A stretch of DNA of 64,000 nt, taken from positions 9,704,501-9,768,500 of the forward strand of contig NC_060021.1 of the NCBI RefSeq assembly GCF_021134715.1. The letters are read 5' to 3'. Below are positions 744 through 54,300 of the stretch, piece after piece. Position numbers and translations under genes: made by a program. Positions within the stretch are counted from its first letter, which is position 1, and the number at the start of each line of letters is the position of its first letter. The notes beneath the pieces are model-generated. The model saw nothing but the letters and a program-made list of their open reading frames with translations, did not search any database and was not told the origin of the DNA. Origin of the DNA: Daphnia pulex. Its lineage: Eukaryota; Arthropoda; Branchiopoda; Diplostraca; Daphniidae.

Positions 744-3700
744 ATGAATAAGTCTAAAGCAAAGATGGGCAAACCCTCCACCCCTCAAAATACATCGGGG
801 AACTGCAATGTTGCTGTAACAAATCGCAACACACCACCTTCTAGAAACAAATCGGACAAAGATATCCCATATGAAGGCATTTACCAGAATTTAAGATTTT
901 GTGAAACAATTACTTCCCTCATGGGGAATACAGTTCAGGTATGGTAAATTGTATGACCTTGTAGTCCACAATTTTAGGTTCAACTTGTTTTGTGTTTCAG
1001 ATCCAACTTTCGAATGGGAAAATATTTGAAGGAATTTTTAGCACGTTTTCTCCTCAGTTAGAAGTTGTTTTAGAACTGGTTCATACAGTTGACCCCAGCC
1101 AACCTGATAAAATTGATGTTAAATCAGTTTCTAGGGAGGTTGTCTTTGGTTCCCAAATGATTGTGATGATGAGCTCCAAAGATGTAGAACTGGACTATGC
1201 CACTAAAGGTACACTGCTTCAAATAATGACTGCTTTTGCATAATTCATGCGCACATCACTAATGTTTGAAATTCTTATTTCAGATTTTGCCACTGATACT
1301 TCCATAAGCCGTTTTAATGGGCTCAGTGGAGAAAAAGAGCTTGAACCCTGGGAGGGTGATGGTGATGATTGTAACATTTCACTGGATAATGCGGTAATTT
1401 AAAGCAATTATTATTGTTTTGTACGCATAAAATTTACTGTTTCTTTTTTAAAATTTAGAATGGATGGGATCCTAATGAAATGTTTGCCAGAAATGAAAAA
1501 GTATATGGAGTTCAAACTAGTTTTGTGGAGGATTTGTCACAGTATACGTGTAAACTAGAAAGGAGGGACTCTGCCGAATTCAAGTAAAATTGGATTTTTA
1601 TCCTCGACAATCGTGTAATCGTTAATTAAGCTAATATTTTTTTTAGGGAAAGAGAAGCTCAAGCATCTATCCTGGCTAATAGTATCGAAGGAAACGCTGT
1701 CTCTAAAGCGCATGCGGACCTTGAAAACGCCAGTGACGAAGAAGAAAAGTTTTCGGCCGTGGTAAGACCTAGCCATGAGTCTCGTGAACGCCGTGAGCCC
1801 CGAGACTTCCGAGACTTTAGTAATCGTTCGTCTGACCGAGGCGGGAGCACAATGGGTGGCAGCGGAGGAGGTAGCACAACTTCTGCTAATGCCGGCGGAG
1901 GTAGTGCCCACAGCTGTACGTAAACAAATTCTGTCTTTCATGCAAACGAACTGCCTTATTAAAGTTTCGATTTTTTTTTTCATGCAGCCAAATATGTTCA
2001 TCCAAATAAGCGGCCTATTAAAAGCGCCATCAACCAAAACATGGGCAAGATGATGCGCTCGACGCCCCCTCCCCACGGTGCTCACGGAGGACACGCTCAC
2101 CCCAACCTAGCTCCGAGACATCAGTCGGTAGGCGGAGGAGGTGGTGGTGGAGGTGGATCTTACCACGGTGGCAACAACTACGATGGTGACGGTAGGGGTG
2201 TTGGTCACACTTCGCAGTCGCACCCGAACAACTCGGGTCCAGTACACCACGGAGGTGGAAGTTATCACCAAGGCGGGCCACAGCATCAGCCATTCCAAGG
2301 ATCTTCGCAAGGGCGGGGCTCGTCTTCCGGTCCCTACTATGGTCGTTCCCAAGGACCGCCTGGTGGTTATAATAACAATAAAAATTCTGCTCAACAATCA
2401 GATTCTCGCGTTGCGAACGGCGATGAGCGCAAAGTCAACCGCGATTCGGCTTACGATTCGAAAAGCGGTCACGCTCCATCTCATTCACACGCCCCTATTT
2501 CCTCGTTGCCACAACGCGATCATGGTCCGAAGGAACAGCGGAAGAACTATGCTGGTAAGCACAATCTTGTGCATTCCGAAGTGAAACAAAACTCTAAAAG
2601 TTTCTATCTAAAACCAGGCAAAACCAGAGACGATCAAAACTCGGATCTGAAGAAGTTTAGTCAAGATTTTCGCCTGGCTGAAAACGCCGCTGGGGATGAG
2701 AAGAAAGCAACTCCTTCTCCTACTGCAGGAAACCCAGCTCCGGCGCCCAATAAAACAAGTACACCTCCTCCTCCAGCTCCGATTGCGCCCATAGTTTCTC
2801 CAGCCCCTGGCGCCGCTCCTGCCTTGACTCCTGCCGCCCCAACCGCCCCTTCAGCTACGCCTTCTGCTCAGCCTGTCCCGGCGCAGCCATCTCGTTCCCC
2901 GGTCGTCAGCCCTGTGCAGGTCAACACGACACCTACTCTGGTCACTCCTCCTGGTCCCAGTGTTGGCGCTCCTCGTGAAGCTACTCCTGTGGAAGAAAAA
3001 GCAGGCGAGTCCGTAGAAAAGGTGTCAGACACGCTGAAGAAATCAAGCCTCAACCCGAATGCGAAAGAATTTGTGCTTAATCCAAACGCGCGGGTTTTCG
3101 TTCCAGTAAGTTTTTCTGTTATCTTCTCGATTATGCATTCAATTTTCTATTAACCCTACTCCATCAACGCAGACTCCTCCTCGGTCTCATACTCCACAGA
3201 CTCAACAAGGTGGGCAAATGTTGATACCTGGTCCCATGGGCCAACTAGGACCTTCTATGGGAGGTGGTTTGGGTGGTTCGGGTAGCCCGGCGCAAGGTCT
3301 TCCGCTAATGCCCGTCGTTCACTACGTTCAGACGAATCCGGGCGGAGTACAAAACCAGGGACCCAACCAAGGTGGTAATCAACCACACTATACAGCCCAC
3401 AATCCAGGTGGAACACGGTTCCGCAAACGTGAGCAACAGTTTTTTTTTCTCAGCATTTATTTATACAAATTTATATTTTTCAGTTAGTTTTAAATCATTT
3501 AATATATTGTTTTTGTTATAGCATCGCCCATGCCTGTGAACCACCGACCTGATTTAGCGTCGTCGATGCATGTAGCCGCCGCAACTGGTCAGCCATTGAT
3601 GGCGCCTGCTCCGATGGGTGGACCACAGATCTTTTATAATCCGCCGCAAGGCGCTATGATGCAAGGGACACCCCAGCCTTATCCACAGGTAGAGTGGACC

Positions 3701-6778: not shown

Positions 6779-8200
6779 TGGTGGGTTAAGTAATCCAAAT
6801 ACGGAAATATATAAAATGTTTAATATTCTGCCTTATTAATTATATATTACTATGTAAGCAAATGTTGTGGATTGTAATTACATTTTCATAGAATGGTTAA
6901 AAGTGAAAGTGACTCAACGCGCGCGTGTTAAACCGTTCAACTGTTAGTGGTAAACGTCCAACTGTTGGGCCTGAACGTCCATTGAAATGCTAATAATACA
7001 ATGAATGTATTTAATGTGACTTGATCTCCGTGGCCTAGGCCATAAGGCCAATGCTTTGGCATATTCTTTTTGTTTTGACTGGCGTTTTAATTAGCTTAAT
7101 GGAGGATAGTTTTCTTTTTAAAACTAAAAATTGGTAATGTACGCAGGTTTTCAAGTCGTTCGAGTTCGAGTCGTCATCATGAAAATGTGGATTAAATTGA
7201 ACTTGTGTCTTGCCGTAACTATAGATGGCTATTCGAAATCTGTCATCAGTGAGTCAGTCACAGATGGGACTGGGAGAGGTGTTGAACAAACAACAAATAC
7301 CAAAAGTTCTTTCCTGCTGCTGTTCACTTTTTTTATTGACCAAATTAATATCCACAAAATATATGTAGGTGAATCTGTAACTTTCATAATCTAATCACCA
7401 TAGTTGATACTTAAACTTCATCCCTGTATTCTAGTTGATTCTAGTATTCTACAATCTACATAATGTGTCCACGAAGCTTGTCTGCTGTCATGTCAAGATC
7501 TCATTTAGGTATTGCATCATAGCTGGGTATTGACTTCGCAACCAGATTCTTTGCCATTTGCAATCGGAAAGATCAGTTCAGGTAAGTCAACATTTACTAG
7601 ACATTTCCATGTAAACTTTCACTATACGTACCACAAATTTCACACTGATGCCCAGCCCAGAGTATTACAGTCGGATGTTACATTTGCTTCTGTGTGTGAA
7701 GTTTTTTTTTCCAGTCGAGTTTTTACGGTGCACATTTAGCCACGGTTTGATTTTTGAGTCTTAAGTCTGTAGCTTAACTACTTAAGAATGATTGTGTATT
7801 ATTATAATTATTCCTTGTTATTATGATTAATACACGCATTTTTTAATCTACTTTGATTTATTTTGTGAAAGCATACCGAAGATCTTTTGCCTTTCTCCAC
7901 GTGATCGCTGCCGTGTCATGGAGATGCTTCTTCTAGAGGGTCTATTTCTATATTGCAAGACAAAAATGTGATAATAACAGGAAATCTGAGTTGGTTATAA
8001 TGTACTTTTAAGATAAATCAAGTAGGTTAGTATATTGCTTACATTTTAGTCTACGTATGTGTGCTAAAGAGTCGTACACTCTTACGTTACTTTAGAATGT
8101 TTGAAATTAAATTTGATATATTTTCAACATGTTCAAACTGATGCAGTGTTTATTTATCATTTTTCAATTACCATTTTAGAGTTCAAGCTTCAGACGTGCC
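6779..8200. other. Intergenic region, no gene seen
   Basis: BAG1 3' UTR followed by AT-rich intergenic DNA. Open frames at 7131-7394 and 7512-7739 lack recognisable domains, show no convincing splice structure and look like chance frames. The region ends where the left arm of the inverted duplication begins. Confidence 0.5.
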
Positions 8201-8580
8201 GGCCAGTTTGCATTTCCTGCACGCTTGAAGGTCACGGTGAAAATTACGTGTAAAACTGTCAATGCGGTGGTGTAGAGGTTGGGTGAGAAAGGTACGTGTT
8301 TCATCATTATCAAGCAGGTATAATAGCCACAAGGCTCAGCCATTTGATATTCATTTTGATATTTGTTGTTGTAGACCCATCCCCAGCAACGCCAACCTAA
8401 AGAAGAAAAGGCCAGTTTGCATTTTTTTCATGCTCGAAGGTCACGGAGATCATTACGTGAAACGTATCATGCGACGGCGGAGAGGTTGGGTGAGAAAGCT
8501 ACGTGTTTCATCATTATCAAATAGGTACAATGCCCGCAAGGCTTAAGAGGTGAGGGTGATCAAAAAAATCGTATAAAAAG
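8201..8580 (+). repeat. Tandem 209-bp units upstream of the tyrosine-rich gene (left)
   Basis: Two diverged direct copies with a period of about 209 bp: ggccagtttgcattt occurs at 8201 and again at 8410. Each is followed by cgaaggtcacgg or cttgaaggtcacgg, an attacgtg motif, gaggttgggtgagaaag and tacgtgtttcatcattatca. The second unit runs into the TATA box at 8572. The position suggests duplicated upstream regulatory sequence for the tyrosine-rich gene. A 94-codon open frame (8262-8546) crosses both units but starts and ends without gene-like context. Confidence 0.75.
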
Positions 8581-8607
8581 GAGAGAGAAAAGGCCAGAGA
8601 CATCAGT
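8572..8607 (+). promoter_or_regulatory. TATA box and initiator of the left tyrosine-rich gene 1
   Basis: TATAAAAAG at 8572-8580 is followed about 30 bp downstream by an arthropod-type initiator TCAGT at 8603-8607. This is the expected core-promoter spacing. The leader then runs to the ATG at 8693. The mirror copy lies at about 16877-16909 on the minus strand. Confidence 0.7.
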
Positions 8608-8692
8608 CGAGTGAGCATCTCCGACACGGCAACAACTGCTGTGCCCTATCTGTCACCATCTGCCTTCTTCACCGTATTGCCAGTTCGCATCC

Positions 8693-9657
8693 ATGGGTAA
8701 ATATTCTGTTTGTTTTTTTTTACATTGAGATTGGTATCAATCCTACTTGTTTCTTGATGTATGAATGTATTGAATATTGATGTTTTAATTTGTTTACTGT
8801 CTAGTTAATAAGGTGTCGTATGCTGTTGGGTGTTGTATCGTTGATGGCTGGGTCGACCACTGGTGTACCGATGTCTCCTGGGTATGGCGGATACCAAACC
8901 GCAACGCCGCCGCCTTACTATCCAAGAGCAACTAACGCAACGACCAGTTACTGCACCGAGATCTCCAAGTACTACACCCCTAAGGCACCGGAGTTTTGTA
9001 CCACAACTTACGCTGCCCCGAGCCACTACACTGACGTCCTGAAGTATTACTCTGCCCCGAGTTACTACACCACCAAGGTGACGGAGCATGACTACGCATG
9101 CTGCCCCATCCTACTACACAGAGGCTTTCAAGTATTACTCTATTCTCAGCTACTTATTGCACTGATTTTCCTAAATACTATTCTGTTCCCAGGTGCTACA
9201 CCGAGGCTCCCGCTGATTACTCCACCAAGACGGTCGAGTACTACACCGAAGCGGTAAACTACTACTCTGCCCCGATCTACACAACCACAACTGAGGCGGC
9301 CAAGGATGACGCAGTTCCGTCTTGCTACACCGAAGCTACTCTTTTGTTCTACGTTGAACAGAAATACTACACTGATGCTCCAGTTCACTACACCACAACC
9401 TACGCTACACCGCAGCCCCCAAGCACTACATCGAAGAAGCCGCCTATTACACAACAACGTATGCTGCCTAGTTTACTACACCGAGGCTCCTAAGTACTAC
9501 ATCACTAAGGCACTGGAATTCTACACGTCTATGTATGCTGCCCCTTCCTACTACACCGAGGCGCCGCCTCTTCAACACTGAAGCTCTTAAGTACTACACT
9601 ACAACCTACGCTGCCCCGAGCTACTACACCTACGTCCCGAAGTATTACTGTGCGTAA
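8693..9657 (+). pseudogene. Tyrosine-rich cuticle-like gene, left copy 1, frame-disrupted
   Basis: Exon 1 is only ATGG (8693-8696, donor gtaaat). Exon 2 begins near 8805 after ctgtctag and runs to a TAA at 9655-9657. The body encodes repeats of the type YYTEAPKYY and YTTTYAAPSYYT, a composition seen in Daphnia-type structural or cuticle proteins. Spliced from the ATG, the frame reads VNKVSYAVGCC and does not enter the frame that gives a signal-like segment and SPGYGGYQT (frame of 8820-9257). The tyrosine frame shifts again near 9095 and 9475. The left copy therefore cannot make one continuous repeat protein. It is probably a pseudogene; sequence errors in repeats are the alternative. Function as a secreted structural protein is inferred from family likeness only. 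Confidence 0.65.
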
Positions 9658-9753
9658 AATGAGTCGTCAGAAAAAAAAAAGAAGTCGGTCCCCGAACTGC
9701 AGTGCCCTATCTGTCACCAACTGCATTCCTCATCGTGTAATCCATTCGCAATT

Positions 9754-10714
9754 ATGGGTAAATATTTTTATTTTTACATTGAGTTGTGTATCAATTCTGT
9801 GTTTTTTTTCTATTTGTTAATATGCCTGTTAATATGTAGTATTAATGTTTAAATTTATTTACTGTTTAGATATCTATGGCGTCATGCTCCTATTGTGTCT
9901 TGTTCGTTGATTGGTGGGTCGACCGCTGGTGTAGCGATGTATCCTTGGTAAGGCGGAAATCAAACCGCAACGCCGCTGCCTTCCTACACAACTTACACAA
10001 CGACCAGTTCCTGCACCGAGGTCTTCAAGTACTACACCACTAAAGCACCGGAGTTTTATACCACAACTTACGCTGCCCCGAGCCACTACACTAAAGCCCT
10101 GAAGTATTACTCTGCCCTGAGTTACTACACCATCTAGGCGATGGAGTGCTACATGACTACGTATGCTGCCCATCCTACTACACCGAGGCTCCCAAGTATT
10201 ATTCTGTTCTCAGCTACTTATTGCACCTATTTTCCTAAGTACTACTCTGTTCCCAGGTGCTACACCGAGGCTCCCGCTGATTACTCCACCGAAGCGGCAA
10301 AGTACTTCTCTGCCCTGATCTACACAACCACAACTGAGGCGGACAAGTATTACGCAGTCCCGAGTTGCTACCCAAAAGCAAAAGCTGCCCTTTCGTGCTA
10401 CGTTGAACAGAAATACTACACTGATGGTCCAGTCTACTACACCACGACCTACGCTACACCTAGCTACAACACGGCAGCCCCCAAGTACTACACCGAAGAA
10501 GCCGCCTATTACATAACTACGTACGCTGCCTAGTTTACTACATCGAGGAATTTAAGTATTACCCTGCTCCAAACTACTACCAAACTGAGGTTCATATTTA
10601 TTGCAATTCTCCCGATTATGTCACCACTACTCACGCTGCTCTGACCTTTACACCGAAGTTCTGAAGTATTTCTCTGGATTTGTTGAAAGATTGCTGGAAT
10701 ACAAAATTGATTGA
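9754..10714 (+). pseudogene. Tyrosine-rich cuticle-like gene, left copy 2, frame-disrupted
   Basis: Second tandem member in the left arm. Exon 1 is ATGG at 9754-9757 with donor gtaaat, and exon 2 starts near 9870 after tttag. The spliced frame meets a stop soon after the start (LLCLVR, stop), and another stop lies in what was the SPGYGGYQ-like segment. The open part 10141-10533 reads YCTYFPKYYSVPRCYTEAP and similar repeats. The coding trace ends around 10714. It is closely related to copy 1 (same intron position and phase), so the pair arose by tandem duplication before the inverted duplication. Confidence 0.62.
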
Positions 10715-12233
10715 TAAATCACAAGTGCATGTCTCTATTTTCTCCTCAAGTACCTTTCCTGCTGCTGATTATTGCATGATGTGAGAAAATATTTCTGAGT
10801 GTTATGTAAACTTACAAATAATTGATCTTGCAAATACAACAATGAAAATTCAAACTCATGTTCTATATTTCAATAATATTAACTTTCCTTTTATGAATAA
10901 TTATTTTCTATCATTAAAATTCAAGTCCAACAACCAATATTTTTTTGAAAAAAATCAAAGTCCACACACCTATTATTTCTGCTAAGTCCAGACTTTTGTT
11001 TTTGAAAAAAAATTTAAAAAAATTCCCCTTACACAAAGTTTTTAAAAAATTTTCGCGAAAAATTTTATTCGAATATTTTATTGCAACAAAATTTATTTTA
11101 TTTGAATATTTTATTTCATACAAAATTTTTTTAAATAATATTTACATTTATTTTTCCTGTGGCCCCCAGGGGGGGGGCCTGTCGCTTTCTCTACCGCGAT
11201 AATAACATGATGCAAGTTATATGCAAGTTATTATTTGTTTGGCGCAGAAAGCTTGTTTAATCTAGCAGTTCTCGACTGTGTCAAACCTGATATTGATCAG
11301 GTTGCCTCAGTCGTATACTGCATGATTGAATGAAAACTCGAAAGACAACACATCAAACTTTTAAGTCAGCACACAGTTAACACAGAGAAATTTCATGGCA
11401 TGGATAAAAACGACAACACAAAAATTTTCAAGTCAGGAACCCAGATGGAACAGCTCAGCTACAACAGCACAGCAACTTCTGGATTACACTGCAACCGCAT
11501 GCTGCATACAAGGGTTCAATCTGTCTTCGTCACACCTTTCACCATTTGGCTGCAACAAGGTAACCAACAGCGTTGAAGAAGTGTTTGTTATACCTATTTA
11601 AGAAAAGAAAATTATTTTTGAGAAACACAACTGTGTACACATGCATACTCATTATAACAAAAGAATGCAAAGAGTAACAGAAGACTACGCAGCCCAACAG
11701 AATGACTTTGATATCTGATTCAATATTTCTATAGTAGCGGAGCAAATTGGTCTACTCTCTAGTCATGTTATTTAAAACTGTAATTTTGTAAGACATTTGA
11801 TTAAAATAATTACTTTTTGCTGTTGCATGCGATGAGACGTACGTCTAAGGCAGGCAGCGAGACACACGAGGCACGCCATTTCGGAAATGTACAGGCACTT
11901 CCAAGTCTGAGTTGAATGATTTGGCAAATTGGTTACTATGAGCTAAATCACCTGTAAATTTTCACATCAACATTTTACATTCAATAAAAATAGGAAATTG
12001 ACAATAAATACCTTTTAATTTTCATCGTGAGAAACGTCACAACCAACAACCCATTTCTGCTGCGTCTTGGAACAAAATGGCCGATAAGCGTCCCTGAAGA
12101 CACTCGCGCTACCTGGTGGACATTATTTCAGTCACTTATTCACAGCCACCTATTGACAGCCATTACTCATTAGATAATTGTGTTGAGTGGTTGTCAAAAG
12201 TTTTCCTATTTTTCCATGAAAATTACCGATGAA
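10715..12233. other. Gene-free inner part of the left arm
   Basis: AT-rich DNA (very A/T-rich at 10900-11160), a G/C patch ggcccccagggggggggcc near 11161, a small hairpin-forming sequence cctgatattgatcagg near 11287, and a perfect 12-bp palindrome agacgtacgtct near 11838. No convincing gene was found. The 68-codon frames here are on opposite strands and overlap. The mirror copy is 13248-14767. Confidence 0.5.
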
Positions 12234-13247
12234 CGGCTGGATTGCTTGCTTCGAGACAGCACGGAGCAACTCAATTGAATTGACATGCCTTTCGGCTTTC
12301 ACTAGCTGGCACGAAATGAATCAAATGAGCATGAACACCAGATTACTCCAGCAGCTTTCCCTATGACACAAATACACAAAGTTTTTAGTTAGCTTTTCAC
12401 ACTTTGTAACTCTTTCAACATAAAAATCTATAATATTAACAGAAAGTGTTGGGGGGGGGGGGGGGTCAAGACAAAAAATTAAACTTACAATTTTCTGAAG
12501 AAAAGAATGATTTTCCTGCCTGTGGCTGAAAGGCAACAGCACCAGTTTTCTGTGTTAGAGTACGTACAGTGAGTTGAGTTCCAACCAACTTTGGCATCAA
12601 ACAGTTAGTCATGTTGAATCTAAAGGAAATATGTCAATAAATATTCCAACATTAATCAGATAAACTAAAGTTAATGGCTACCTACTGCTTGTGTTTAACA
12701 TTCAGAAAAATACAACACATGTTGGTATTTGCCCTGCATTTGTTCATATTCTTCTCTTAAGCTGCTGCAATAAACCTGAAGATTGGCCAAGATGATATGA
12801 TATTTTTCATAGTTTTCCCTATGACAGAAAATACAATCTATGACATCAAATAAAAGTTTAAAACCGAAAGAAGAATACTTGTATGTCAATGAATTATTTG
12901 TTGAAAAACAAACATGTCCACACTGGGGTAGTGACCTACCAAGATCAATAGAAAATGCTGATAATTAGACGAATATTAACTAAGTCTGGAAACAAGTATT
13001 TTAAAAAATTGTGACTAAGACATTTTTGGTTTTTACCTGTATTAACTGCATGATGCATTCAGCAGAACGAAGATTTTTAATAAAAGAGTTGGTGTTAGTG
13101 ATGGTAGGCAACTTGTATGCTACTGTTTCCTTTCCAGTTCCTTCCTACAGGTTAGATAGAGGAATTTTGAATTTAATCCAGCACACATAAGGAATAAACC
13201 ACATCACAAACAATTTGCACAGAAACGAACTTGAATTTACTTATGAA
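12234..13247 (-). pseudogene. Palindrome spacer with exon-like segments on the minus strand
   Basis: The 1,014 bp between the arms is single-copy in this window. On the minus strand there are three exon-like blocks. The clearest is 13037-13144, bounded by ctgtag and CAG|gtaaaa and exactly 36 codons (EGTGKETVAYKLP to ECIMQLIQ). The second, about 12745-12830, reads YEKYHIILANLQVYCSS. The third, about 12530-12620, reads FNMTNCLMPKLVGTQL. Each looks protein-like, but the phases of neighbouring blocks do not join and no start was found. I do not recognise the family. A broken or captured gene fragment is the likeliest reading. A 17-bp run of G lies near 12450. Confidence 0.35.
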
Positions 13248-14767
13248 TTCATCGGTAATTTTCATGGAAAAATAGGAAAACTTTTGACAACCACTCAACA
13301 CAATTATCTAATGAGTAATGGCTGTCAATAGGTGGCTGTGAATAAGTGACTGAAATAATGTCCACCAGGTAGCGCGAGTGTCTTCAGGGACGCTTATCGG
13401 CCATTTTGTTCCAAGACGCAGCAGAAATGGGTTGTTGGTTGTGACGTTTCTCACGATGAAAATTAAAAGGTATTTATTGTCAATTTCCTATTTTTATTGA
13501 ATGTAAAATGTTGATGTGAAAATTTACAGGTGATTTAGCTCATAGTAACCAATTTGCCAAATCATTCAACTCAGACTTGGAAGTGCCTGTACATTTCCGA
13601 AATGGCGTGCCTCGTGTGTCTCGCTGCCTGCCTTAGACGTACGTCTCATCGCATGCAACAGCAAAAAGTAATTATTTTAATCAAATGTCTTACAAAATTA
13701 CAGTTTTAAATAACATGACTAGAGAGTAGACCAATTTGCTCCGCTACTATAGAAATATTGAATCAGATATCAAAGTCATTCTGTTGGGCTGCGTAGTCTT
13801 CTGTTACTCTTTGCATTCTTTTGTTATAATGAGTATGCATGTGTACACAGTTGTGTTTCTCAAAAATAATTTTCTTTTCTTAAATAGGTATAACAAACAC
13901 TTCTTCAACGCTGTTGGTTACCTTGTTGCAGCCAAATGGTGAAAGGTGTGACGAAGACAGATTGAACCCTTGTATGCAGCATGCGGTTGCAGTGTAATCC
14001 AGAAGTTGCTGTGCTGTTGTAGCTGAGCTGTTCCATCTGGGTTCCTGACTTGAAAATTTTTGTGTTGTCGTTTTTATCCATGCCATGAAATTTCTCTGTG
14101 TTAACTGTGTGCTGACTTAAAAGTTTGATGTGTTGTCTTTCGAGTTTTCATTCAATCATGCAGTATACGACTGAGGCAACCTGATCAATATCAGGTTTGA
14201 CACAGTCGAGAACTGCTAGATTAAACAAGCTTTCTGCGCCAAACAAATAATAACTTGCATATAACTTGCATCATGTTATTATCGCGGTAGAGAAAGCGAC
14301 AGGCCCCCCCCCCTGGGGGCCACAGGAAAAATAAATGTAAATATTATTTAAAAAAATTTTGTATGAAATAAAATATTCAAATAAAATAAATTTTGTTGCA
14401 ATAAAATATTCGAATAAAATTTTTCGCGAAAATTTTTTAAAAACTTTGTGTAAGGGGAATTTTTTTAAATTTTTTTTCAAAAACAAAAGTCTGGACTTAG
14501 CAGAAATAATAGGTGTGTGGACTTTGATTTTTTTCAAAAAAATATTGGTTGTTGGACTTGAATTTTAATGATAGAAAATAATTATTCATAAAAGGAAAGT
14601 TAATATTATTGAAATATAGAACATGAGTTTGAATTTTCATTGTTGTATTTGCAAGATCAATTATTTGTAAGTTTACATAACACTCAGAAATATTTTCTCA
14701 CATCATGCAATAATCAGCAGCAGGAAAGGTACTTGAGGAGAAAATAGAGACATGCACTTGTGATTTA

Positions 14768-15728
14768 TCAATCAATTTTGTATTCCAGCAATCTTTCAAC
14801 AAATCCAGAGAAATACTTCAGAACTTCGGTGTAAAGGTCAGAGCAGCGTGAGTAGTGGTGACATAATCGGGAGAATTGCAATAAATATGAACCTCAGTTT
14901 GGTAGTAGTTTGGAGCAGGGTAATACTTAAATTCCTCGATGTAGTAAACTAGGCAGCGTACGTAGTTATGTAATAGGCGGCTTCTTCGGTGTAGTACTTG
15001 GGGGCTGCCGTGTTGTAGCTAGGTGTAGCGTAGGTCGTGGTGTAGTAGACTGGACCATCAGTGTAGTATTTCTGTTCAACGTAGCACGAAAGGGCAGCTT
15101 TTGCTTTTGGGTAGCAACTCGGGACTGCGTAATACTTGTCCGCCTCAGTTGTGGTTGTGTAGATCAGGGCAGAGAAGTACTTTGCCGCTTCGGTGGAGTA
15201 ATCAGCGGGAGCCTCGGTGTAGCACCTGGGAACAGAGTAGTACTTAGGAAAATAGGTGCAATAAGTAGCTGAGAACAGAATAATACTTGGGAGCCTCGGT
15301 GTAGTAGGATGGGCAGCATACGTAGTCATGTAGCACTCCATCGCCTAGATGGTGTAGTAACTCAGGGCAGAGTAATACTTCAGGGCTTTAGTGTAGTGGC
15401 TCGGGGCAGCGTAAGTTGTGGTATAAAACTCCGGTGCTTTAGTGGTGTAGTACTTGAAGACCTCGGTGCAGGAACTGGTCGTTGTGTAAGTTGTGTAGGA
15501 AGGCAGCGGCGTTGCGGTTTGATTTCCGCCTTACCAAGGATACATCGCTACACCAGCGGTCGACCCACCAATCAACGAACAAGACACAATAGGAGCATGA
15601 CGCCATAGATATCTAAACAGTAAATAAATTTAAACATTAATACTACATATTAACAGGCATATTAACAAATAGAAAAAAAACACAGAATTGATACACAACT
15701 CAATGTAAAAATAAAAATATTTACCCAT
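14768..15728 (-). pseudogene. Tyrosine-rich cuticle-like gene, right copy 2, frame-disrupted
   Basis: Mirror image of 9754-10714. The ATGG mini-exon has its ATG at 15728 and the large second exon runs downward to about 14768. The same early stop and frame breaks are present as in the left copy, so the damage predates the inverted duplication or has been kept identical by gene conversion. The longest open part is 14949-15341. Confidence 0.62.
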
Positions 15729-15824
15729 AATTGCGAATGGATTACACGATGAGGAATGCAGTTGGTGACAGATAGGGCACTGCAGTTCGGGGACCGACTT
15801 CTTTTTTTTTTCTGACGACTCATT

Positions 15825-16791
15825 TTACGCACAGTAATACTTCGGGACGTAGGTGTAGTAGCTCGGGGCAGCGTAGGTTGTAGTGTAGTACTTAAGAGCT
15901 TCAGTGTTGAAGAGGCGGCGCCTCGGTGTAGTAGGAAGGGGCAGCATACATAGACGTGTAGAATTCCAGTGCCTTAGTGATGTAGTACTTAGGAGCCTCG
16001 GTGTAGTAAACTAGGCAGCATACGTTGTTGTGTAATAGGCGGCTTCTTCGATGTAGTGCTTGGGGGCTGCGGTGTAGCGTAGGTTGTGGTGTAGTGAACT
16101 GGAGCATCAGTGTAGTATTTCTGTTCAACGTAGAACAAAAGAGTAGCTTCGGTGTAGCAAGTCGGAACTGCGTCATCCTTGGCCGCCTCAGTTGTGGTTG
16201 TGTAGATCGGGGCAGAGTAGTAGTTTACCGCTTCGGTGTAGTACTCGACCGTCTTGGTGGAGTAATCAGCGGGAGCCTCGGTGTAGCACCTGGGAACAGA
16301 ATAGTATTTAGGAAAATCAGTGCAATAAGTAGCTGAGAATAGAGTAATACTTGAAAGCCTCTGTGTAGTAGGATGGGGCAGCATGCGTAGTCATGCTCCG
16401 TCACCTTGGTGGTGTAGTAACTCGGGGCAGAGTAATACTTCAGGACGTCAGTGTAGTGGCTCGGGGCAGCGTAAGTTGTGGTACAAAACTCCGGTGCCTT
16501 AGGGGTGTAGTACTTGGAGATCTCGGTGCAGTTTAACTGGTCGTTGCGTAAGTTGCTTTTGGGTAGTAAGGCGGCGGCGTTGCGGTTTGGTATCCGCCAT
16601 ACCCAGGAGACATCGGTACACCAGTGGTCGACCCAGCCATCAACGATACAACACCCAACAGCATACGACACCTTATTAACTAGACAGTAAACAAATTAAA
16701 ACATCAATATTCAATACATTCATACATCAAGAAACAAGTAGGATTGATACCAATCTCAATGTAAAAAAAAACAAACAGAATATTTACCCAT
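15825..16791 (-). pseudogene. Tyrosine-rich cuticle-like gene, right copy 1, largely open but with shifted N-terminus
   Basis: Mirror of 8693-9657, with ATG at 16791 and TAA at 15825-15827. Here a 2-bp difference from the left copy, near 16530, lets the spliced N-terminal frame run on into the tyrosine repeats. One frame is open from the mini-exon to 16225 (SYAVGCCIVDG then YTPKAPEFCTTTYAAP). The N-terminal part is out of the frame that encodes a signal-like leader, and the tyrosine frame is lost downstream, so a functional product is doubtful. Confidence 0.55.
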
Positions 16792-16876
16792 GGATGCGAG
16801 GCAATACGGTGAAGAAGGCAGATGGTGACAGATAGGGCACAGCAGTTGTTGCCGTGTCGGAGATGCTCACTCGACT

Positions 16877-16909
16877 GATGTCTCTGGCCTTTTCTCTCTC
16901 CTTTTTATA
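16877..16909 (-). promoter_or_regulatory. TATA box and initiator of right tyrosine-rich gene 1
   Basis: On the minus strand, TATAAAAAG (16901-16909 region) is followed by TCAGT about 30 bp downstream, the mirror of the left-arm promoter. Both arms retain an intact core promoter although the coding frames are broken. Confidence 0.65.
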
Positions 16910-17280
16910 CGATTTTTTTGATCACCCTCACCTCTTAAGCCTTGCGGGCATTGTACCTATTTGATAATGATGAAACACGTAGCTTTCTCACCCAACCTCT
17001 CCGCCGTCGCATGATACGTTTCACGTAATGATCTCCGTGACCTTCGAGCATGAAAAAAATGCAAACTGGCCTTTTCTTCTTTAGGTTGGCGTTGCTGGGG
17101 ATGGGTCTACAACAACAAATATCAAAATGAATATCAAATGGCTGAGCCTTGTGGCTATTATACCTGCTTGATAATGATGAAACACGTACCTTTCTCACCC
17201 AACCTCTACACCACCGCATTGACAGTTTTACACGTAATTTTCACCGTGACCTTCAAGCGTGCAGGAAATGCAAACTAGCC

Positions 17281-18563
17281 TTTCCTTCTGCAGGTTGATG
17301 TTGCTGGAGAATGGGAATACATCTGGGGAATGGGTCTACAACAACCAATATCAAAATGAATACCAAAAAACCAGACATTCTTTTGAAGAGAGGTTTGGTA
17401 AATGGTTCAATCCAAGCCGACGAGTTATTCTTGGGGCCACGATGGAAATCTTGAACGACGTCGGGCTAGTTGCTTTAATTCTTGTTCAGGTCGGACGAAG
17501 ACGGTTTGTTTTGTTGACATCACTGGGAATTTCTTTTATATCCTGCAAAATACGTCAAAAATAATTGGTTGTATTAAATTGGCTAAATAAACCAAAACTT
17601 CGACAGCAATCCAGTCCTTCAGACCAAGTGTTTAGACACTCGCAAACGCAAATCTGCCATAAAACGCACTTTATATGACCGACCCTAGCTCAAAAACTTT
17701 AAACTGTATAGAGATCAAAGCTCACTTGAAAGATTAATGTAAATTTAGCAAAGTTGCTTTTGGAGTACTGTGGATAAGATGAAAAGTAACAGAGGTTTAG
17801 TTTGCAACTTTAAAAAAGTGTGTAGGTAAGGTTTAGGAAACAAAGGGAAGCAATGCGCTTTCGAATCCCCGCCCAGCAACAAAGATCACATCATAATTAT
17901 TTAATCATATAGATCTATAAGACAATTATAATAAATGAATCACTAACCCCTAGGAGCAGAACAACAAAATCAATCACTATGGCTACCGCATAAATATTTT
18001 TGATTTCATGTCCGGTTACGCTCTTATATTTTGAAATTTATATTTAAGCACAACGACCTCAAAATATTGAGAAGGTTCTTCATAAGCTGATAACTTGTTT
18101 CTTCTACCAGCCCTCCCAAATCTCGCGTCATCATAATCCGTCATTTAATTAGCAGCAATTCCACCTCGATTCCGGAGCATGAGTCGTTCAATACCAGTAA
18201 ATTTATCACGGAGCTATCCAACGAACTATCCAACTTTTGGTTCATTGCATTTGTCAGTTATTTAGTTTCGTTCTCTGTCCACAGTGCTCTGTCTGTCAGC
18301 TACGTTAAGGGAACCGCTTGTCAAACACACAGTATTTATACTTCAATAACTATTCCAGCAAGTTCCAAAATGCTCAGGCACTACCAGTTCGGTAAAAAAA
18401 AAAAATATTCTGTTCAATCGCACAGGTTACCTGTACACGAAATGCATCAATTTTATAGACAAATTCGGTTAAACGAATTTTAAAGTTGCCGATACACGAT
18501 ACACGACAAACCCAAACCAGATTGCTTGCTTGCTATAAAACCCAGTTCACAGTCGACGGCAAA
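17281..18563. other. Right flank of the palindrome and intergenic DNA
   Basis: 17281-17380 carries a further partial copy of the 209-bp upstream unit (gggtctacaacaaccaatat matches gggtctacaacaacaaatat inside the arm). The rest is AT-rich intergenic DNA and probably the promoter of the ionotropic receptor. The open frame 17259-17564 spans the arm edge and has no recognisable domain. Confidence 0.5.
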
Positions 18564-48300: not shown

Positions 48301-51300
48301 GAGGATGGAAAAATAAGAGACGTGATGGATGATACACATTCACGGAGAAGAGAGAGAGAGAGAGATTGTAATAATCAATACGACGACGACGACGTCGTAC
48401 CGTATACCGCACAACAGCAGCAGCAGCAGCAGTAGCAACTGGCTGCCGGCAAAACTATTGTTTGCGGTTTCTAAATATAACTGCGGGTCTCGTACCTTGA
48501 GATTGCGAGCCACTTCTGCGGGGAATTGCAAGAAAGACGAAGAGGACATTCGGCGATAAATGCGCTCGACCAGGATTCCGGCCCGTATGGCCTGCGCCAC
48601 CGACCGGAATTTCGGCTTCTCCTCGCCGGGCTTACGGTGACTGCTGATTTGGCGTGTAAAAGTCGACGCCAACCAGGCACGCACTTCCGGCGGCACGGCA
48701 TCGGCCCGCACTTCCGACAAATCGTCATCTTCTTCCGGCGTCCGCCTGTTATTTATTTGGGCGATTAGAATAATAATAAAAAAATGTCAAGAAATCAAAT
48801 CACAATAATGAATACAAATCAGGCGTTTCTCTCCCTGTACATTTCACCGTTCGCAAAACGTTGAATTTTTGTAATGAATTAATTGTCTCGTTTTTGGTCT
48901 ATTTTGGGATAATCCGGTGCGCAATTGATGCACTGGGCAGGTTATTTATAGCGACAGGGAGGAACAACATTATGATTATTATGACGCAGAGTCGACTTTC
49001 ATAAGGATGTGATCTTTGATGAAGGCAATCCAATCCGGATGTCTTCGAGTGTGTGCGTTTCCGCACCGCTACGAATTAGTCAAAGATTTGGACTCGGGGG
49101 GTAGACGAAAGAGACGAGAGAGAGAATATGGCGATTCGAAAACTTTTCTTTCTCATTCGTGGAAGTCACATCCGTTTCTCTCTCCCTCTTGTTATTGACT
49201 CGGCGAAAAAGCAGCAGCAGCAGTAGCAATGGTGTAGTAGTAGGTAGAGCAGTCTCTCTCTCGTCTCGTCTGCTCTGTATATGTACAGAAATGAAGGCAA
49301 AGCTAAAAGTCCTGAGCAAACAAGATGAATTGGAGTGTATATACACACCCGGGCTTGCAACTGGAGGGGGGGACTAGACACACTTCTTCTTCTTTCCAAG
49401 TAGACGGGCAGGCCAAAACTGTAAATAGGTTTCTTCTATTGAAGTTGAGGATTTCTAAAGGCTCTCTCTCTCTCTCTCTCATCTTTCTCTAGTTCCCAAT
49501 GAATAGCTTTTCGAGATACTATCTATTCATCTTCTGGGTTTCGCTTATGCCTCAAATTTTCAATTCCATCTCTCTCTCTCTCTCGTCTGGAAACATAATC
49601 AGGCCGAAAGTTACTTCACTACGGTCCGATTTAGACTTTCCGTCGTTTCATTGATTCTGGCAAATCTGATGAAAGGAACCACACCGCAGATATAGCTATC
49701 CCAGTGCCACTTCAATACGATGGGACTGGCGGACTTTTTCTTTAACTACACAAAAGAAATTCTTCTTCTTCTTTTTTCATTCCAGGGGACCGCCCGGTTA
49801 TTGTCGATGCCGTCCAGTGTACACATATAAGAGTCCCTCAGTTGAAGCGGTCGCGACTGCACGCGGCTGGGCAGCTGCCTAGCAAACCACAAAGACAGTG
49901 CGCTAGAGCTGATATCGGGCCGTAGAGAGGGAAATATATACGTATACGTCATTCAATCGGCATCGTTACGGTTCTTGTTCTTTTCTTTCTTTTTCCTGCA
50001 GCTCAGAGCTCAAATCAATAATCGATACTATACACACACACACACACACACTCTTTCTCTCTTTTTTTCTCTGTACTCGGCACGTCCTTGTTGTTTTGGG
50101 GTTTGCCTTTCATTTTCACGTGATATTCCAGCAGTGATGGCAGTGCCGAGGAGAATAGGAGAAGGCAATCAAAAATAGCGGAAACCCCCTCTAAACAGCA
50201 TCCAGATTGCTGTAGCGTGCGAATTGGTTTCGAGCCAGTCAGGCGCCAACTCTTTTTTTTATTCCTCGCCTTGCCAAAAATAATCTAATAAAAAGGGAAA
50301 AATCTTGTTTCACTAGAAAATTCTTCTTTTTTTTCCCCCCTTCGTCTATAGCTATAATATTTTCTTTTGATTCGTTTTTATCTCGACATAGTAAGTTCTT
50401 CAGTCTAATATTTCCGCTGCTGGGCGGTGTGGCGTCTTTCATTGTGCTACTCCTTTTTCTTTTCTTTTCTTGGCCATTATAAGAGTTAGTAGGACTCGTA
50501 ACGCTATCGTGACTCTCTTCTATTCTTTTGCCTTTGATATTTCACCCATTTACTGGCGCTGTCTCTCTCTCCCTAGCTCTTGTTGTTACACAATCCCTGA
50601 CAGATCAAAAGAACTAGACTGTATATAGTTAAGATAGTGTGTAGCAGTAGTAGTAGCAGCATCAGCAGCAGCTCTCTGGATCGCAGACGGAAGTGCGGAC
50701 GAGTTATACACACGCTCACCGATGATAGAAGAGATAGTACACATCACCTCCGGCACCAGAGGAATTAAGTGTTAGATAAAGCGGAGGGCGGCGGCGGCGG
50801 CGGCGGAAAGTAATAGCTAGGGCGACGACTACTAGGCGGAGGAGGGCGCCCATTAAAAGTGGCTATACACTGGCGAGATGATGGCTCCATAAGAGAATAT
50901 GGGATGACGTGGATGGAGCTATCCACATTTCCTATTTTTTTTTTATTATCAAGATTTTCGGGACGGTTTTCACGCCAGGCTCCAGCCGTTTGAGATGGGA
51001 CGTGAGCGAAATGAAAGACGAGAAACGCAAGACTCACACGCGTGCAATAAAAGATTCAAAAATAAAAAAATAAATATAAGAAATATTAGAGTGTGTGTGT
51101 AGGCCTACAGCAGACGACACAGAGAGGCAGCGACTCGTTTCGGATGGCGCTGGTATTTTTCGGTGGTTAAACAACACTTGTGGAAAATCACACAGAAAAA
51201 TATGGATTCGCAAACAAACGCGAAAGAGACCAAGACGGATAATAAAAATTCGCAAGGAGAAAAAAAGAACCACACACGACGACGAATAAATGATGAGACG

Positions 51301-54300
51301 AAAATAAAAAATAAATAAATGTCAAAAGAGATAGAAAAGATGTCACCTTTTTTTTAAAAGTGCAGGGCGACGAACATGGAGTGAAGATGCCTTTGAAGTA
51401 GTAGTAGTAGTAGCAGTGGTAGTTGTTGTAACACGGACAGTAGCAGAGGAAGGAGGAGTAGAAGAAGTAGAAGAGGAAGAGGAAGAAGAGGAACAAGTGG
51501 AAAAAGAATTGGAGGCCGGTCGGGAGCTGACTCGAAACGGAGAGGCCCGTGAACGGCAGGGTTTTGTCAGATGAGGTAATAACAAGTTGGGAGTGGATGG
51601 TGGTGGTGGTGGTGGTGCTGGCGAAGAAGTTGTGTCATTTGTATCGGGCCACAATGCCTCCTCTTCGTCGACATCGTCGTCGCATTCGGGACTGAAGGGG
51701 TTCCGCGGGATTGGGGTCAGGAACGGGAAATTTCGTTGGAAAGAAAGTAGGAGGAAAAAAAAAGTTGCCAACGACAACACAGTAAATCCCCAAAGTGTAG
51801 AAGAGAAATAAAAATAGAAGAAAAAATAAAAATACAAAAGAAATTGGACGAGAGGACAAAAAGATCATGAAGACGAGAGACATCAGCCAAGGCATCACGG
51901 GCGTTGGTGTTTCGAGGGTGGGCGGGAAAAAAAAAATTTTCAAAAAGAGAAATGAAAGAAGAATAAGATATCCGATAATAATGATAATAAGTGAGAAATA
52001 TATGTACAAAGTGGTTAAAAAAACCGGACACGACGCGCGCGCGCACACACACACACACAACCATGACACCGAACGAGACAAGGCGCACACACACACACAC
52101 ACACACACACAATAAATGAATAATTCAAAGGCTAGCAGTATATAGAGCTCTTGTGTCCCTTTTTCTCTTTTTGACTATTCCTTACTATATAGTAGATGGA
52201 GGCGGATGAAGGGCTACGCGGATCATTTGACATCGTAATTGATTCGATTGATGGCCGAACCGAGTGAGCTGTTTGTCAAAGTCAACGGAGGAAAGAGAAA
52301 ATAGAAAGGAAGAAAAATAGGATTGGCAGCTGCTAGTATTACTGGTATACGTACGCCGTGCGTGGCACAGCCAAAGGGCGTCTTTTCACCCAACTTGATG
52401 GTCCAATTGCGCAGCTTCGTGTCAGACTTATATCTGCTCGGTTTCGGCCCTCATTCTCTTTTTATTCTCTTTTTTATTCTTTTCTAAAAAAAGACAACAC
52501 GGTAAGTGTCCAGGGGCTTAAATTTGTTCATTAATTCCAGGGCTCCCCTTTTATCCTATTCTCATTGGGGACCGCACTGTCACTTAATAATAATAACAAG
52601 CCACCGGAAACCAACGGTCAATTTCTAATTGCCAGAGAGCTTTATCATCCCTTTTTGACATTTGCAGGTAATCATGATAACCAAAAACAAAACAAAAAAA
52701 TGTTTCCATCTCGGATAGATGTCATAACATAACCACAAAGAAATTCACTTTGGTCTCTACAGAAAGGCGTGTGTAGTCTTTTATGGCTGCTGGTTTTACA
52801 CACACACACACACTCACTGGGTAATCGATTTTTATTTTTTGGCCTCCCTCGTTCCCACCAACCCTTTTCGCCTTGTTCGTGCGATTACGATAACGAACTT
52901 GTATAGTCTGCACGGCAGTAGACGATGTGTTATTACAGAATACATAACCCCCCCGGCCCCAATTGACGGCAGGCAGTAGTAGCAGCAGCATCCTCGTGTC
53001 TCTTATTATTTTCTCCTTCATTCTCCGTTTTATCCCCAGCAGTCGCGTGTAACGACCGCCCGAAAAAAAAAAAAAAAAAAAAGAAGTTGCTCATCCACGA
53101 ACCTCTTTTTTTTTTTTTGATTATTATTTAGTTATCCAGGATTGTGTGTGTGGGTGTGTGTAGTTAGATACTCACAAAAACAGTTGATTGGGCTGTTAGG
53201 AGTAATGGTATGAGTAAATTTAGATCTAAGCAAAAGATAACTACTTTGTGTGTGATTATTTCCGCTACTCACCCAAACCCCCCACCTCCACCCACCCGTT
53301 ATTCCCTCCTCTTTGCGGATGAGATCCGTTTTAAAAGAAACTTGAGGCTCTCTACATACACATCAAAACCGGCACGGACTTCATGGGGGGGGGGGGGAGT
53401 TCAATCGATCCTTGTGTGTGTGTGAGAGAGAGTTTTACGGGGTTAACGGGGTGCAAAAGGCCTTTAGATGAGCGCCAGAGGCACGATTTTCAACATCAAT
53501 TAAGAGCGGCAGATACACAGACAGATGTACACACAAACGATTGTGTCTATGCCACATACATATGATAGTTGATGGGAGTTAAGTTTTTAAAAAAAGATGA
53601 GAGAGAGAGAGTATAGTTATACGTATCCAGGGTATACAGAACTATTTGTTCTGCTGGCTGACGTTTTCAGCCTGCGGCGACCGGTTAGGAGCGCAAACTA
53701 TATAGGGTAAAAGGGAATTGGGAGCAGCACAACACACTCACCTCCCGGCCTCGTCGATGTACACGGCGTCGAGCACTTGAATGGCCAATTTCAGATTCTT
53801 CTGCATCACTTCGGGTCGAACTTCGCCCTTGTCCAGGAGCCTTAGTAGGCATTTCAGTCTGAAGCAAAGAATAAAAGAAGAAGAATACACTGTATAAGTA
53901 AAAAGGCTGAAAAGAAAAAAAAAGTAAAATAGGAGGAGATTGTGCCACTAGTCTATAAAATACGGGAGAAGAAAAAAGGAAAAAGTATCATCGGATTCCA
54001 TCATCCGGCTGCTCTCTCTCTCCTTCTCCTCGAAGCAGGATTTTCTGATACACTGTATGTGTGTGTGTGTGTGTGTGTAGTCTAAAGTTGACGGGTCTTT
54101 TCACGTGCTGGCGGCGGTGAAACTCTCGTTCCATCTTCCCGCCCGCCATCCCTTAGGCTGTCACATCATTGATCCTTCTCCGTTCCTCCCTCAAGGATTC
54201 ACGACTCCTCTGCTTGTGCCTCTCACTCTACAGTAGCAGTACGTATATAGACACACACACACACATTCACAGTACATCGAAAGCATTTTACAGGAACGCT

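Follow-up and report, generated by a model that had tools for sequence, protein, structure and literature searches.

A dispersed family of palindromes in the Daphnia pulex genome with signs of gene conversion between arms

Palindrome-driven gene conversion is best known from sex chromosomes. The closest precedent for the locus described here appears to be the inverted-repeat gene pairs of Caenorhabditis, which in the portions of the account consulted are long near-perfect repeats holding convergent or divergent paralogs, with active maintenance proposed (PMC1803023). For the palindromes of Folsomia candida a wide range of Ks is reported, and concerted evolution is not favoured by the authors, as far as the cited portions go (PMC5490193, PMC7953838); a survey of parthenogenetic animals, going by the excerpted text, covered 23 of 26 species in its screen, with D. 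pulex excluded because annotation was lacking (PMC7953838). Among the titles listed in searches of the open-access literature, with bioRxiv outside the scope, none described the present palindrome family or Daphnia palindromes.

Here we analyse a palindrome in a window of 64 kb (the whole stretch of DNA studied, C5:9704501-9768500) and its relatives in the genome searched (133,188,837 bases in 13 contigs). The palindrome is one member of a large scattered family, and not a lone event.

Structure and gene content of the palindrome

Self-comparison of the window confirmed the 9.1-kb palindrome with 4.03-kb arms and a 1.0-kb spacer that an earlier note on this DNA had described: as judged by self-BLAST and arm alignment, the left arm (8201-12233) matches the inverted right arm (17280-13248) with 99.73% identity over 4,036 columns, around a non-palindromic spacer of 1,014 bp (Table 1). 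The scattered substitutions and indels of 1-3 bp reported in the same note were also recovered. Over the 4,036 aligned columns the arms differ by five mismatches (left-arm positions 8204, 8921, 8926, 8934 and 9320) and three indels, one of 3 bp (8682-8684), one of 2 bp (8949) and one of 1 bp (in a G-run at 11168), and seven more mismatches immediately beyond the left edge, at 8187-8200, mark the arm ends. A match so long and so identical cannot be chance, and the palindrome shows the combination expected of gene-converted palindromes, namely an unrelated spacer between arms that are ~99% identical or better. It is the sole long inverted repeat in the window (BLAST, E 1e-10 or better). The tandem pair of ~135 bp at the outer end of the left arm has its mirror counterpart where the right arm ends on the outside. 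The remaining self-BLAST matches in the window fall within the same two arms or at the arm edge. Searches of the 64-kb window for tRNAs and for Rfam families found nothing.

Table 1. Positions of the palindrome, its parts and its flanks within the window
Feature	Position	Strand	Basis or remark
Outer flank A	7532..8200	+	homology to six other palindromes compared, in their outer flank or outer arm
Left arm	8201..12233	+	self-BLAST and arm alignment, 99.73% to right arm
Upstream tandem pair, ~135 bp	8201..8543	+	copies 8201-8336 and 8410-8543, 82% alike
Decayed gene copy 1, left arm	8634..9500	+	frameshifted; ~80% to copy 2
Decayed gene copy 2, left arm	9695..10562	+	sequence comparison
Inner 68 bp of left arm	12166..12233	-	exact inverted copy of spacer right edge 13248-13315, 100% over 68 bp
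Spacer	12234..13247	+	repeat extent ~12232 to 13303-13315; at or near centre of related palindromes
Right arm	13248..17280	-	self-BLAST and arm alignment
Decayed gene copy 2, right arm	14920..15787	-	mirror of left copy 2
Decayed gene copy 1, right arm	15982..16847	-	mirror of left copy 1
Outer flank B	17281..17828	-	0.5-0.6 kb of homology with the opposite flank of two related loci

Each arm carries two decayed tandem copies, ~80% alike, of a gene for a secreted tyrosine-rich protein with YYTTKAPEYY repeats. Intact relatives elsewhere in the genome have a signal-peptide-like start (..LLLGVVSLMAGSTTGVPMSPGYGGYQ..) followed by YYTTKAPEYYTTTYAAPSYYTEAPK repeats, and the open frames of three of them are 548, 357 and 402 residues long; exact 21-mers shared between the arm and these three number 27, 20 and 49. 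We compared the frames of the three intact loci with those of 16 palindromic or single-arm loci (the start motif was not found in two of the 16): the open stretch after the start motif is 321-536 residues in the former and at most 140 residues in the latter, the window palindrome likewise having at most 140 open residues past the signal-peptide motif. Some family matches across the genome have long stop-free frames, and further copies of the gene may be intact. The single divergent locus among the matches listed, C1:4.61 Mb, has an inverted repeat, 99.1% alike, with two frames of 357 residues, so an apparently working pair of the family is also palindromic. A Pfam search with two pieces of the tyrosine-rich repeat protein matched no family, and the sole match for an open frame from the 3' portion of an arm was to RyR, below the cut-off (E 0.045). 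Our guess is that the protein is structural or cuticular.

A dispersed family with a common centre

Many relatives of the left arm are present across the genome searched, often arranged as inverted pairs with 0 to ~1.2 kb between them; identity is mostly 83-97% for the longer relatives (31 of 619 candidates scored). A 30-base motif from the gene start, allowing up to three mismatches, matched 259 times on one strand and 256 times on the other; the reversed control gave 0 and 0 matches. Grouping matches less than 16 kb apart among the 400 listed, some of which represent the same gene, yielded at least 125 gene-family loci: 48 convergent, 1 divergent, 0 mixed and 76 on one strand only (among the matches listed, the last figure being inflated). 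As independent inverted duplications would yield both orientations, the 48 convergent loci against one divergent speak for a single layout; we give this count without a probability, the loci being related to one another. The loci occur on most contigs in a single internal orientation, and their positions (hand-picked) are non-uniform on the eight contigs tested (p between 8e-6 and 0.03, Kolmogorov-Smirnov test).

We compared ten two-arm palindromes: that of the window and those at C5:9.87, 9.09, 9.29, 8.30 and 11.24 Mb, C12:9.40 Mb, C2:1.21 Mb, C9:0.61 Mb and C10:13.63 Mb. The window's spacer, either complete or reduced to a remnant of 110 bp or more, lies centrally in nine of them (on C2, C5, C9, C10 and C12), the exception being C5:8.30 Mb with a 148-bp centre that has no spacer match. 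Since the spacer is common to the centres of nine of ten, the palindrome is older than its copies. In the genome at large, 80 spacer matches merged to at least 40 places (40 of 196 candidates scored), with inward-pointing family matches within 7 kb on both sides of the spacer in 16, on one side in 17 and on neither in seven; five of these seven are the most diverged (74-76%) and one has an outward-pointing arm alongside. We considered the spacer as an independent mobile element inserted centrally and dropped the idea, as 33 of the 40 places adjoin an inward-pointing arm or gene. We read the spacer mainly as the old centre of the palindromic unit.

The outer flanks extend the comparison. Homologues of flank A occur at 80-83% identity (five) and at 72% (one), and none was found on the right side of the window palindrome; flank B has shorter homologous pieces at other loci besides its two longer matches. 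Both of these unlike flanks recur at C5:9.87 Mb and C5:9.29 Mb, which lie ~150 and ~425 kb from the window, and the arm edges coincide to within a few bases. Flank A of the window differs by 12-14% from seven other copies, which differ among themselves by 0-6%, a divergence that a simple one-origin history does not explain, and the three copies of flank B are 11.5-15% apart. High flank divergence as proof of exchange between loci was dropped, the window's flank A being an outlier.

At C5:8.30 Mb the palindromic arms extend to the limit of the 14 kb examined, and no other place matched more than ~0.6 kb of their outer 2.3 kb (40 of 141 candidates scored); either re-growth towards the outside or a history of its own would fit this. 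At C1:5.22 Mb a pair of 4-kb stretches, 18 kb apart end to end, are mirrored at 99.8%, the DNA between them being known from search matches; the mirror image is still running 9 kb from the centre, and much of the outer stretch resembles many places, most of them without a mirror partner (among the matches listed). Outer edges thus vary locus by locus. At ten or so other places homology continues beyond the arm end of the C10 copy.

Homogenisation, exchange and the history of the family

To relate the arms to one another, we used a tree of a 2-kb core (window positions 10100-12127) with 26 arms from 16 loci; of its 20 inner forks, three have weak support. In nine of ten palindromes both arms group together as sisters, 0-2.7% apart, and divergence between loci (one arm from each of the 16) is 2.0-11.7%. 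The homogenising is uneven, since the arms at C5:9.09 Mb are 2.7% apart in the core and those at C12:9.40 Mb, which are not sisters, 8.9%. Sister arms in nine of ten palindromes, together with a common centre in nine of ten, are what a palindrome older than the divergence of its arms should display. As layout and centre are common across the splits of the tree, the arms must have been homogenised afterwards, that is, by gene conversion; the pattern in the sequences thus supports concerted evolution of the family through arm-to-arm gene conversion, by a presumed molecular pathway. On this reading the arms appear young only through repeated copying from one to the other.

The window locus bears further traces of such exchange. 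At the inner end of its left arm a 68-bp copy replaces a junction of ~26 bp that leads into the spacer elsewhere, namely at C5:9.87, 9.09, 9.29 and 11.24 Mb, at C12:9.40 Mb and in three single arms; repair that copied the right arm beyond its edge would explain the extension. A larger symmetric extension into the spacer is found at C2:1.21 Mb. With flanks A and B as reference, C5:9.87 Mb carries the spacer in the opposite orientation to the window and C5:9.29 Mb, as crossing over between arms would make it. Finally, the spacers of the window and C5:9.29 Mb are 99.4% identical, despite arms that are ~91% identical by BLAST (4.8% apart in the core, substitutions), and exchange between these two loci is therefore probable.

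Could the palindrome be an assembly artefact, formed by mirrored contig ends or by two haplotypes joined head to head? The arm identity of 99.7% would fit either, but each arm holds a variant of its own that is common to both arms of another locus: among 21 arm rows compared, the 3-bp deletion occurs only in the window's right arm and both arms at C5:9.87 Mb, and the T at 9320 only in the window's left arm and the same two arms. These variants shared in trans mean that the arms are distinct sequences, which counts for exchange and against a mirrored assembly. The earlier note likewise took the real differences to speak against a mirrored artefact; its reservation about a mis-joined pair of haplotypes loses ground, given variants shared with another locus and unlike outer flanks that recur elsewhere. 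With the flanks unlike on the two sides, and with outer and central junctions that recur at other loci, we regard an artefact as extremely improbable.

Each palindrome might instead be a separate recent inverted duplication of a single arm, with arm identity dating the event. That same-palindrome arms are closest relatives in nine of ten cases, and that arm ends are unlike among many loci, would fit this; however, the same spacer or a remnant of it is central in nine of ten two-arm palindromes, convergent loci outnumber divergent ones 48 to 1 (among the matches listed), and both outer flanks of the window are common to two other loci, so that this explanation is very unlikely. A recent single inverted duplication was rejected on the common centre, the flanks and the orientation. 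Of the two readings offered earlier, active gene conversion is supported, but not a very recent inverted duplication. The inversion predates the arm identity, because the layout and the central spacer are common to palindromes whose arms differ from the window's by ~2.5-10% in the core, and because outer flanks and edges are also common to two other palindromes. A transposable element with very long terminal inverted repeats, which captured a host gene and spread by transposition, would account for loci on most contigs with one internal orientation, for the inward-pointing arm or gene adjoining 33 of 40 spacer places and for the uneven placement along the eight contigs tested. Such an element should have constant outer ends, but arm ends differ among the loci compared and no constant outer end was found there, so a classical, fixed-end transposon is not supported; moreover, the mirror image at C1:5.22 Mb persists 9 kb from its centre. 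Among the open frames listed for a few loci, none was conspicuous as a possible transposase. Inspection by eye of the arm ends of eight loci revealed no target-site duplication, but arm ends need not be element ends, and this result carries little weight. We consider a transposon origin unlikely.

The history that we consider probable is that of an old palindromic unit of single origin, copied whole, whose arms are mutually overwritten by gene conversion, with some exchange between loci. The unit would have comprised two inverted arms, with two decayed tandem gene copies each, facing one another across the spacer; it would have been born once in the inward-pointing layout and the whole of it then copied to many places. 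Layout, centre and some edges are common to the members, from which we infer the single origin and the copying; spread through copying of whole segments is preferred but unproven. Arms, spacer and outer parts would later have been lost or grown, and in most copies the arms would keep overwriting each other by gene conversion. Occasional crossing over between arms could flip the spacer, and break repair copying past the arm edge could lengthen arms into it, by 68 bp in the window; the junctions are present in the sequence, and the repair route would be the one outlined here. Shared variants suggest that some exchange also occurs between different loci. A more speculative version, in our view distinctly unlikely, has the palindrome as a self-maintaining repeat that spreads as a block and renews itself by copying between arms and across loci, and whose readthrough double-stranded RNA could tune intact family members: the fixed inward orientation would let readthrough transcripts pair into long double-stranded RNA.

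Comparison with known systems

Under the history of an old unit copied whole, dozens of palindrome copies of differing age in one genome make conversion, spacer inversion and arm growth or loss readable as a natural series, with little selection to blur it, since the genes are broken in the copies compared. With several Daphnia assemblies available, and with mutation-accumulation lines used in the genus, rates could be measured.

Like these palindromes, those of mammalian X and Y chromosomes are described, in the portions cited, as having arm identity above 99% kept by gene conversion, and rare inversions; they lie on sex chromosomes, often with genes (PMC3723533, PMC8981503, PMC6790999), whereas the Daphnia palindromes have arms of ~4-9 kb, many loci and contigs, and decayed genes in the loci compared. 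Palindromes of the parthenogenetic invertebrates F. candida and Adineta vaga have likewise been discussed together with gene conversion, but in the passages cited they are fewer (11-19) and detected by gene order (PMC5490193, PMC7953838). Drosophila hairpin-RNA loci, going by the cited portions, resemble the present family in that their inverted repeats are, in principle, potential sources of double-stranded RNA with similarity to other genes (PMC10317233, PMC10292708); the Daphnia arms differ in being kilobases long, with a 1-kb spacer. The Caenorhabditis pairs share with the Daphnia palindromes inverted repeats that are older than arm identity suggests, although that account, in the portions consulted, concerns a few annotated gene pairs compared between species (PMC1803023). 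In Daphnia, by contrast, we find one family dispersed within a genome, with two-strand loci nearly all convergent and gene copies broken in the loci compared.

Palindromes on contigs C5 and C1

At C5:8.30 Mb, the palindrome occupies all 14 kb fetched; its centre is 148 bp long and lacks the usual spacer (that of the window's palindrome), and its outer arm is nearly private to that locus. The two 4-kb stretches from C1:5.22 Mb, which contain a repeat present at many other places, mirror each other at 99.8% identity and are the outer parts of one palindrome of at least 18 kb.

Inverted-repeat loci and the stretches fetched from them
Feature	Stretch	Coordinates
Palindrome	L018, L019	C5:8293700-8307700
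Mirrored outer stretches	L042, L043	C1:5220600-5224700 and C1:5234600-5238700
Inverted repeat with head-to-head gene pair	L040	C1:4612800-4617500

Other features

A frame flanking the C5:11.24 Mb palindrome (L020:313-1194, +) matches UDP-glycosyltransferase (Pfam PF00201, E 3e-16). Within the window, a 370-residue frame (2041-3153, +) matches PAM2 twice (Pfam PF07145, E 2e-7), and the strand is strongly purine-rich at 51001-52000 (GC skew 0.35, AT skew 0.37).

A divergent gene pair

The inverted repeat at C1:4.61 Mb, with arms of at least about 2.1 kb that are 99.1% identical, holds two open 357-residue frames of the tyrosine-rich repeat protein family, oriented head-to-head. This pair is divergent and apparently working, a counterpart to the broken convergent palindromes.
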